Below, piece by piece: positions 27,540 to 30,195 of a stretch of 64,000 bases of DNA (positions are counted from its first letter, which is position 1; every line of letters begins with the position of its first letter). The DNA comes from a virus. The stretch covers positions 1 through 64,000 of the IMG/VR virus record IMGVR_UViG_3300015371_000010. One strand, given 5' to 3'. Position numbers and translations under genes: made by a program. The notes beneath the pieces were generated by a model. It did not search any database. It saw only the letters and a program-made list of their open reading frames with translations, and was not told where the DNA came from.

Positions 27540-27916
27540 TGAGGATCATCCCGACCCATGGTCCGGACTGGGAGCGTCGGATGGTGGAAGCCCTGGAGCG
27601 GGTGGGCTACGTCTGCCACCCACCGGGTCAGAGCTGTGTGGGTGCGGAGCATGTCTTCGCGGGGAAACAGGACACCAGCTACAGCGCCAGCGTGTACGTG
27701 GCTCCGAGGACGGGCACGCTGCGCCAGATGATCCTGATGGAGCTGCAACTGAACGGGCCCAGTACCGATGTGGAGCTGCAAGAGTCGCTGAAGCTGCATG
27801 GCAACAGCGAACGACCGCGGCGGGTCGAGCTCGTGGAGGGCGGATTCGTTCGTGACTCTGGACTGCGGCGCAAGCATCACGGTAAGGAACACATCGTGTG
27901 GGAGGCGATCAGATGA
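27539..27916 (+). CDS. Winged-helix-like hypothetical protein (125 aa)
   Basis: Residues 60-110 (MILMELQLNGPSTDVELQES and SERPRRVELVEGGFVRDSGL) read as a winged-helix domain that senses or binds DNA. ATG overlaps the previous TGA; a GTG sits just before it. Family not recognised. Confidence 0.6.
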   Translation: MRIIPTHGPDWERRMVEALERVGYVCHPPGQSCVGAEHVFAGKQDTSYSASVYVAPRTGTLRQMILMELQLNGPSTDVELQESLKLHGNSERPRRVELVEGGFVRDSGLRRKHHGKEHIVWEAIR

Positions 27917-28113
27917 GCACCATGGTTGATGAGATCACCGATGCAGAGTTGCATGCCGCGATGCGAGCGAGAAAGGTCGCGGGAGAGAGGTACCTGCAGC
28001 TCGTCCTCCAGGCCAAGGAGCAAGGCTGGAGCAACTCCCGGATCGCGCGGGCAGTGGGTCTCAGCGAGGCTGCGATCCGGCTGATGCTGCTCCGACGCGA
28101 CAAGGCAGCCTGA
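27913..28113 (+). CDS. HTH protein (66 aa)
   Basis: Helical protein with GWSNSRIARAVGLSEAAIRL, a classic helix-turn-helix (residues 41-60), and a basic end LLRRDKAA. ATG overlaps the previous stop. Likely a DNA-binding regulator. Confidence 0.75.
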   Translation: MSTMVDEITDAELHAAMRARKVAGERYLQLVLQAKEQGWSNSRIARAVGLSEAAIRLMLLRRDKAA

Positions 28114-28117
28114 CCCG

Positions 28118-28855
28118 GTGAGTGCATACCGCTGGGCTCATGGGAACACCCACTTCCCGCTGATGCGGGACAAGACGATGTCGCGCTGGCAGCAGTGCGA
28201 GAACCTGATCAGCGCCCAGGCGGGCAAGGCGGTGGCGCGGGGAGTGCCCTACTTCCTGACCGTGGATCACAACGATCACAGCGGGGACAGGTTCAATCCC
28301 AAGGGCTTCCGACGTATCGGTGGGCACGGGATCGATTACATCGGGGTCAGGCTGCCTGAGGACTGGAAGCTCCAGCCCAGCGACAAGGGGCGGGCCAAGA
28401 GCGTCAGCATTCTGAACGAGAAGATGGTGCCCGGGACCATCGACAGGCATGACTTCTACGGGGCTCGGGTGCTGATCGTCTACACCGAGCAGGTCCAGCT
28501 CCGGTTCTGGCTGGTCACCGCCAACCTGGGTCGTGGTGAGCCGGTGAATGTGTTCGAGCGCAATGTGCGCCGGATCAAGCGGGCCTTCCCCAAGGAGGCC
28601 TCGTTCGGGTTCCAGGAGATCGATGAGGCTGATCGGCCGCGGGAGCATGAGGAGTTGCGCCAGGAGTTCCCCCGGGCCCGGATGGTGGGCTGGGGCACGA
28701 TGAACCCGATCGTGACCAAGAGGCTGATGGTGCGCTCGGCCCGGATCACTAAGGCCTGTGATGGCCTGGCCAGGTACACCCCGACCCGGATGCTGGCCGA
28801 GGGCGAGTTCGAGGTGAAGGGTGATATCACCAAGCGAAGTGATATCAGTGGGTGA
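28118..28855 (+). CDS. EEP (DNase I-like) nuclease, apparently circularly permuted
   Basis: 245 aa from GTG. EEP hydrolases normally run: N-term NxG strand, QE, NTH, DxN, IDYI, SDH. Here the protein starts with the third motif: GNTHFPLMRD (res 9-18), VDHND (res 49-53), GHGIDYIGV (res 69-77), RHDFYGARVLIVY (SDH-like), and only then FWLVTANLGRGEPVNVFERN (N-terminal strand) and FGFQEIDEADRPREHEE (QE motif), ending just where NTHFP would continue. Read circularly, the order is canonical. It is followed by an RHH regulator and then by a conventional EEP protein at 29032. If active, it is a divalent-metal phosphodiesterase or nuclease. The family call is firm by motifs; permutation is inference. 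Confidence 0.75.
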   Translation: MSAYRWAHGNTHFPLMRDKTMSRWQQCENLISAQAGKAVARGVPYFLTVDHNDHSGDRFNPKGFRRIGGHGIDYIGVRLPEDWKLQPSDKGRAKSVSILNEKMVPGTIDRHDFYGARVLIVYTEQVQLRFWLVTANLGRGEPVNVFERNVRRIKRAFPKEASFGFQEIDEADRPREHEELRQEFPRARMVGWGTMNPIVTKRLMVRSARITKACDGLARYTPTRMLAEGEFEVKGDITKRSDISG

Positions 28856-28861
28856 TATCAC
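28821..28861 (+). promoter_or_regulatory. Triple palindromic operator GTGATATCAC at RHH gene start
   Basis: Perfect GTGATATCAC at 28821-28830 and 28852-28861, and GTGATATCAG at 28839-28848 between them. The outer two are part of an identical 17-mer (GGGTGATATCACCAAGC) 31 bp apart. They lie on the start codon(s) of the ribbon-helix-helix gene, the expected place for autoregulation. Confidence 0.8.
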
Positions 28862-29024
28862 CAAGCAGGTCTCGCTGCGGCTGCCCGCGCACCAGCTGAA
28901 CGAGGTGGACGAGCGGGCCGAGGCGCTGGGCATCTCCCGCAACCAGTGGTTCGAGAACATGCTCGACTGGGTGCTGCTGCACACCTACACGAACGCCGCG
29001 GGTGAGGTGCAGCGCAAGGGATGA
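28821..29024 (+). CDS. Ribbon-helix-helix DNA-binding regulator
   Basis: 67 aa. KQVSLRLPAHQLNEVDERAE then ALGISRNQWFENMLDWVL is a MetJ/Arc (CopG-type) ribbon-helix-helix; the strand residues KQVSLRL contact DNA. GTG at 28821 is chosen for GAGGTGA six bases upstream; GTG at 28839 or 28848 are alternatives. The start region is covered by three GTGATATCAC palindromes, so it probably represses itself. Confidence 0.8.
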   Translation: MISPSEVISVGDITKQVSLRLPAHQLNEVDERAEALGISRNQWFENMLDWVLLHTYTNAAGEVQRKG

Positions 29025-29031
29025 TGTGGCC

Positions 29032-30195
29032 ATGGCGGGCGAGAACCACTGGTACCACCAGAACGGCGACCTCTACACGCTGACCCAGCTGGCCAAGCTG
29101 GATGTCGGTGATGTGGTCTACCGCAAGGGCGGAGCCAGGAACAAGCTCGACCAGGCCGAGCTCAATGCCATCAAGGCCTATCTGCAGGCCAACAAGGCCC
29201 AGGCCCAGCACCAGGCCAAGTTCCCGCAGTTCGGGCACATCCACTGCTCATCGCGGTTCGACCGCTCTGCGGCTTCGCTGGAGGCGGACCTGGATGACTG
29301 GATGAGCCAGGTCGGGCTGATCACCCTGACCGAGATCAGCAACGACAACCGGGCCAACCAGATGCGGGAGAAGGGCTGGCAGTACTACAACGCCAAGGCC
29401 TCCCAGGGCCAGGACGAGTGCGGTACCGCCTGGCGGATGGACACCTGGCGTCGGGTGGCGGCCACGGTGCGCAAGCTCAACAACGAGCAGTACTACCGCC
29501 TGGACGGGAGAGTGGCCGATCCCGTGGTCAGCTCCACGGTGGTGCTCAAGCGGGCCGATACCGGGCATCGGCTGATGGTCTCGGTCACGCACATGCCCGC
29601 GCATGTGGAGGGCAGAGGTGGCTGGCGGACCACGGAGAACAAGTGGCAGGCCCGCAAGGCCGCCTACCTGAGCTCCCTGGCCAACTGGGCCACCCATGTC
29701 CAGGCCCTGGAGAACCAGTACAAGCCGGACGCCACGCTGGTGGTGGCGGACTGGAACCTCAACCTCAAGGAGGAGTGGGTCAGGGATCTGCTGCGCAACC
29801 GCTGGGGCGCGGCCTATCGGCAGGCCTGGACGCACTTCCCCACCAGTGGTGGAAGCCTGGTAGGAGGCGCCTCCGCGCCCCCAGGCGCGCCGGGCAAGGG
29901 CTATGGCGACCGAATCATCGACGGCACCCTGATCAGGGGCGTGGAGACGATCGGCGGCCCAGTGCTGATGCCACGAGTGAGCAGCTCGGATCACCGGCCC
30001 TACCGAGAGAGCTTCGAGTTCACCACCAAGGCCGGCCATCCGGGCTCAGCCGGTGCGGCTGGCGGGGATGGAGACGATGAGGCCACCGGAGACACTCACC
30101 GTGGCGACCCCTGGTGGGGCTTCGGGGACTACATGGACGACGAGATCTACCAGGTCCCGGTCACGGTGGGTGCGCCTGGAGGTGAGGTGCTGTGA
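29032..30195 (+). CDS. EEP (DNase I-like) nuclease with N-terminal extension
   Basis: 387 aa. Residues 1-75 are helical and Gln/Ala-rich (a possible targeting domain). The EEP core begins near SSRFDRSAASLEADLDDWM, with LITLTEISNDN (Glu motif), SVTHMPAHVEGRGGW (Thr-His), LVVADWNLNLKEEW (D-W-N), and SSDHRPYRESFEF (SDH). Canonical order, in contrast to the permuted relative upstream. A Gly-rich acidic tail follows. Probably a metal-dependent nuclease or phosphatase. Confidence 0.85.
   Translation: MAGENHWYHQNGDLYTLTQLAKLDVGDVVYRKGGARNKLDQAELNAIKAYLQANKAQAQHQAKFPQFGHIHCSSRFDRSAASLEADLDDWMSQVGLITLTEISNDNRANQMREKGWQYYNAKASQGQDECGTAWRMDTWRRVAATVRKLNNEQYYRLDGRVADPVVSSTVVLKRADTGHRLMVSVTHMPAHVEGRGGWRTTENKWQARKAAYLSSLANWATHVQALENQYKPDATLVVADWNLNLKEEWVRDLLRNRWGAAYRQAWTHFPTSGGSLVGGASAPPGAPGKGYGDRIIDGTLIRGVETIGGPVLMPRVSSSDHRPYRESFEFTTKAGHPGSAGAAGGDGDDEATGDTHRGDPWWGFGDYMDDEIYQVPVTVGAPGGEVL

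Follow-up and report, generated by a model that had tools for sequence, protein, structure and literature searches.

The EEP superfamily is large and much studied, and includes DNase I, APE1, ExoIII, TDP2, and the inositol phosphatases. Its fold consists of two pseudo-symmetric halves, and the first and last strands of a canonical EEP domain are neighbors. Our search of the open-access literature found no description of a natural permuted EEP protein, in agreement with the initial annotation of the locus. A 2025 preprint on permutation detection names no nuclease or phosphatase (PMC12667903). Natural permutations of other enzymes, the cpRAS GTPases (PMC2430557) and NlpC/P60 enzymes (PMC3142127), are reported to represent the same kind of evolutionary change as the protein described here, although their folds and chemistry are unrelated. 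The gene reported below is apparently the first circular permutation reported in the EEP superfamily.

The gene comes from a soil phage and lies at 28118-28855 of a 64-kb stretch of an 82,687-base virus record; we call this whole stretch the window, and all of its features given here are on the plus strand. It encodes 245 aa from a GTG start that closely follows the upstream gene's stop codon. As the initial annotation had described, a single open frame carries six EEP-type motifs with the C-terminal half first: NTHFP (aa 10-14), VDHND (49-53), GHGIDYIGV (69-77), (D)RHDFYG (109-115), TANLGRG (134-140), and FGFQEIDEAD (163-172). The window protein shares a conserved motif set and a predicted fold with the EEP superfamily (PF03372, Exo_endo_phos), but its halves are inverted, it has no PF03372 match, and D-x-H stands in place of SDH. 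The canonical order of motifs is not something that the chemistry requires, so we class the protein as a permuted variant rather than as an ordinary EEP member.

Sequence evidence for a permuted EEP domain

In its native order the protein is close to invisible to standard searches. It matches no Pfam or PHROG family, tblastn against phages and plasmids gave nothing or noise, and direct homology searches returned the protein itself and noise only. The rotated protein matches no Pfam family either, PF03372 included. Because an unpermuted, canonical homologue (L016) likewise goes unmatched, we regard the Pfam model as insensitive for the window protein. Homologues were reached by searching viral contigs for DNA encoding FQEIDEAD and then iterating. 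This yielded unpermuted relatives in viral contigs and Nocardioides genomes (L016, L017, L019, L022, and L061-L066), the standard-order homologues whose search had been proposed at the outset as a check. These phage and prophage EEPs share about 27-33% identity with the window protein along almost the entire chain after rotation and have the same invariant residues, but their order is canonical and some are located immediately downstream of a presumed lysis gene, not in a replication module.

Rotation restores full-length similarity to these proteins. Against a 226-aa homologue the native protein aligns over 87 residues only, whereas the rotated protein aligns over the full length (E 8e-18, 30% identity); across the unpermuted homologues, the best nearly full-length alignments of the rotated protein reach E values of about 1e-17 to 1e-18 at about 30-32% identity. 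Alignment A1 shows the permuted N-terminal half ending in TIDRHDFYGARV, at the place where unpermuted homologues end TIDGHDAQWARV. A rotation scan with a scoring profile made from unpermuted members alone raised the score from 94.7 bits (best single domain of the native protein) to 142.2 bits on rotation at residue 124, turning two partial profile matches into one full-length match. No other rotation exceeds this value, and the maximum falls exactly at the joint between the former termini. In the same scan, 300 shuffles scored at most 5.4 bits, and the unpermuted homologues peak at or adjoining zero rotation. The rotation scan and the full-length rotated alignments, at about 30% identity, bear out the proposal that rotation gives the canonical EEP order and establish the permutation at the sequence level. 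We conclude with high confidence that 28118-28855 encodes a natural circular permutation of an EEP domain.

The two halves can be delimited with the A2 profile, whose scores for the window protein are inflated because the profile was built with the rotated protein included. Over the 256-aa open frame, model positions 110-221 match aa 13-136, and positions 2-110 match aa 140-246. The canonical C-terminal half, now N-terminal (aa 1-123), thus occupies 28118..28486 as judged from profile positions 110-221 and the alignments; the canonical N-terminal half, now C-terminal, occupies 28487..28807 (profile positions 2-110) and is 40-44% identical to homologues across 87-100 aa. No core elements have been lost: the old termini are joined, and the new termini lie on either side of the loop that precedes the NTHFP strand, with the new N-terminus 9 residues upstream of NTHFP. 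The protein closes with an extra C-terminal tail of 15 aa (28808..28852) that is modelled with low confidence (pLDDT 48 over the last residues).

Predicted structure and active site

Structure prediction of the native order, also proposed with the initial annotation, was carried out with AF2. From the single sequence the model reached a pLDDT of 36.5; with a half-fragment alignment it reached a pLDDT of 84.2 and a pTM of 0.86. This alignment had 23 rows, 22 of them unmodified homologue half-fragments placed where they match, and the permuted order came from the query alone. The rows were a subset chosen by simulation for their expected MAFFT placement; with whole half-fragment sets MAFFT misplaced the C-halves, and the subset follows the local alignments instead. 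The pLDDT drops to about 71-80 between about residues 81 and 130, a stretch that leads up to and includes the joint. The predicted architecture of the native order is that of an EEP protein, a four-layer alpha/beta sandwich with the DNase I-like fold; a structure lacking this sandwich, one of the two outcomes that the initial annotation had named as refuting it, did not result. In its secondary structure a short turn links strands 113-123 and 126-136, the fused former C- and N-termini, and this turn coincides with the rotation maximum (joint, 28484..28492).

A structure search of the PDB with the model returned EEP proteins in 50/50 of the matches listed, with E values from 5e-8; among these are TDP2, Nocturnin, DNase I, LINE-1 endonuclease, CNOT6L, ExoIII, and others. 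Of the named matches in BFVD up to E 0.001, the majority likewise have an EEP annotation. Sequential-alignment TM-scores against the PDB were about 0.4-0.6 (about 0.55), with rmsd mostly 5.6-9, low values that would be expected of a half-swapped chain of a pseudo-symmetric fold. A sequence search of the PDB with the A2 profile found no EEP protein.

These data suggest how the permutation could be accommodated. The first and last EEP strands would be joined by a tight turn in the window protein, and the chain would be opened instead in the loop that connects strand TRMLAEGEFE to the one running into NTHFP. The permuted chain should then fold into the usual four-layer sandwich, bringing the Asn, Glu, His, Asp, Asn, and Asp-His residues to their usual positions. 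As to its origin, we infer that a canonical gene was most likely duplicated in tandem and in frame, after which the outer halves were lost. Of this route, which the initial annotation had put forward, the near-linkerless joint is a fitting outcome, and no remnant proves it.

The catalytic positions are invariant in A2, and the active site departs from the canonical motifs at one place, D-x-H for SDH. In the N-terminal half, NTHFP (28145..28159) supplies the catalytic His of the canonical THxP motif (H123, invariant in A2), DHN (28265..28273) corresponds to canonical GDxN with its metal/substrate Asp and Asn (D161 and N163, both invariant), and GIDYIGV (28328..28348) holds the position of the ExoIII-type RIDY Asp (D183, invariant). 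DRH (28442..28450) lies at the position of canonical SDH, with D209 and H211 invariant: the His is retained, and the Asp stands two residues before it. The first-strand Asn motif TANLGRG (28517..28537; columns T7-R12 invariant, N9 being the Asn) and FGFQEIDEAD with the catalytic metal-binding Glu (28604..28633; Q39 and E40 of the QE pair invariant) follow in the C-terminal half. D-x-H also occurs in most canonical-order members of the group and is therefore not due to the permutation; its replacement of SDH means that metal binding at this site may differ.

The window protein is most likely a working Mg-dependent EEP phosphodiesterase, which would hydrolyse phosphodiester bonds, most likely in DNA, with Mg2+ or Mn2+. 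The genes around it encode a DnaB-like helicase, a primase, a DNA polymerase, a Cas4-like exonuclease, and a RuvC-like resolvase, and its product may be part of this phage DNA-metabolism module. From this gene context we somewhat favor DNase activity. A smaller but substantial share of our expectation goes to a protein with the right fold and another substrate, as in many EEP members, whether RNA, 5'-tyrosyl-DNA, nucleotides, or lipids, and whether a phosphodiester or a phosphomonoester. The best structural matches, TDP2 and Nocturnin, rank ahead of DNase I, D-x-H replaces SDH, and some relatives adjoin or are fused to cell-wall hydrolases, all of which would suit such a substrate; the position of the window gene within a DNA replication module speaks for DNA. 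Similarity of EEP folds does not fix the substrate, so neither side of this argument is strong.

Integrity and surroundings of the gene

Fusion of two partial EEP genes by a sequencing or assembly error, which the initial annotation had named as an outcome that would overturn its reading, or decay of a gene, would leave no natural permuted protein at all. We consider this very improbable. Only one genotype has been seen, with one exact instance of the window-type permutation, near-identical in two contigs, and no other gene with this cut point in the viral contigs or in the sampled actinobacterial genomes; a second EEP-like gene also lies close by (29002-30195). That neighbor, however, is not detectably related to the permuted gene, whose single uninterrupted frame has coding-type GC periodicity like its neighbors and whose catalytic residues are intact. 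A second contig (IMGVR_UViG_3300015374_000411), which may share the window's sample, contains the same 8010 bases with 2 differences, both outside the gene. The frame is thus the same in two assemblies, which argues against a sequencing slip. Neither flank holds leftover EEP halves; the flanking genes are conserved or typical of the slot and so leave no room for them. That two other genomes encode another kind of permuted EEP also counts against a fusion artefact.

Equally improbable, in our estimate, is a natural split enzyme, in which the halves would also be made as separate chains that assemble with one another. A GTG codon at V118, ahead of the N-terminal-type half, could provide the internal start near residue 118 that this would call for. 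There is no stop between the halves, however, and the full-length protein is therefore made in any case.

The permuted gene occupies a slot marked by an upstream helix-turn-helix (HTH) gene (27898..28113), which has 42-57% identity in six related loci. In three related phages (L002, L003, and L006) the slot after the HTH gene holds EEP-like proteins whose motifs follow the canonical order; L002, for instance, has GTEAG...SAHYLTKR...GADTN...YIDVI...SDHYLL. These proteins belong to other subfamilies, are unrecognized by Pfam, and are assigned as EEP by motif reading only. The arrangement suggests that the permuted EEP takes up a position occupied by canonical EEPs in other phages. Both these unpermuted genes in the same slot and the second permuted form, with its different cut point, go beyond what had been annotated before. 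In another related phage (L008:4348-4998), a 216-aa protein downstream of the HTH gene looks phosphodiesterase-like by eye, is not an EEP protein, and has no Pfam hit. The slot after the HTH gene is variable.

Downstream of the permuted gene lies a ribbon-helix-helix (RHH, CopG-like) gene (28848..29024, likely GTG start at 28848), recognized by weak Pfam and PHROG RHH hits that are below the Pfam cut-offs; by inspection, L002 and L006 also have RHH-type genes in the equivalent downstream position. It is followed by the second EEP-like protein (29002..30195), which has the canonical order HIHC, TE, THMP, DWN, SDH (alignment A5 and motif reading) and is conserved in related phages. This protein has no Pfam hit and its profile link to A2 is not significant, so that it is an EEP protein by motif reading only. 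An origin of the permuted gene from this neighbor was considered and rejected, there being no significant relationship between the two.

Near-copies of a palindrome, GTGATATCAC, occur at 28821, 28839, and 28852 (28820-28866), over the tail of the permuted gene and the start of the RHH gene. Its copy number in the window is barely above chance; 3/3 copies are clustered at 28820-28866, and the palindrome looks like an RHH operator. The C-terminal tail of the permuted protein overlaps a 16-base repeat (28820, 28851) common to the start of the next gene, and the tail's GDITK resembles the GDITK at the RHH start.

A second permuted form and further relatives

A different permutation is found in a Nocardioidaceae genome (L031, 1501-3105, minus strand) and in a viral contig (L067, 3242-4600). 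These type-2 EEPs have the same former C-to-N joint as the window protein but their cut point lies further along: no more than the final segment, which bears D-x-H, has moved to the front, and the proteins end directly after a GLDTIRYVVG-type strand. Their order in the A2 profile is 187/191-219 followed by 2-185/186; this profile was built with a rotated L031 among its members, and taken by itself the first segment of L067 scores weakly (iE 13). Rotation also improves their best-domain scores against the profile that contains only unpermuted members, from 89.5 to 107.3 bits and from 86.6 to 101.4 bits. The L067 protein carries an Amidase_2 domain ahead of its EEP domain in one fusion, and the L031 gene lies directly after a presumed lysis (peptidase-like) gene.

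A phylogenetic tree unites L031 and L067 in one clade (100/100). Its placement of the window protein has no support, and the AU test does not reject a clade that brings the three together (p 0.33). A single origin is therefore neither shown nor rejected. We see an even chance that actinobacterial phage EEP nucleases have been permuted at least twice independently, at two loops, and that phages have thereby accommodated the domain in amidase-EEP fusions and in operon slots. If so, the two independent permutations would mean that an old superfamily tolerates natural relocation of its termini. The unpermuted EEP-like genes of the slot, the two cut points, and the amidase fusion together constitute a natural experiment on the tolerance of the fold, and they offer natural cut sites for the design of split or fused enzymes. 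Because Pfam and PHROG searches miss the permuted genes altogether and pairwise search misses them in part, others may hide among phage orphans.

The family profile also reaches three proteins that pass the PF03372 cut-off (L050, L056, and L058). In L058 (1102-3444) and in L051 and L039, the EEP domain is followed by a GH25 lysozyme domain, with Pfam hits for L058. The canonical EEPs of L016 and L022 lie directly after a presumed lysis gene, for which there is no Pfam hit. An association between EEP proteins and endolysins in Nocardioidaceae prophages is possible. The same profile group contains chromosomal EEPs with the canonical order (L069-L091), spread over many large genomes from the order to which Nocardioides soli belongs. 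These relatives appear to be secreted, as a Tat-like leader is present in the two that were read, L069 and L070.
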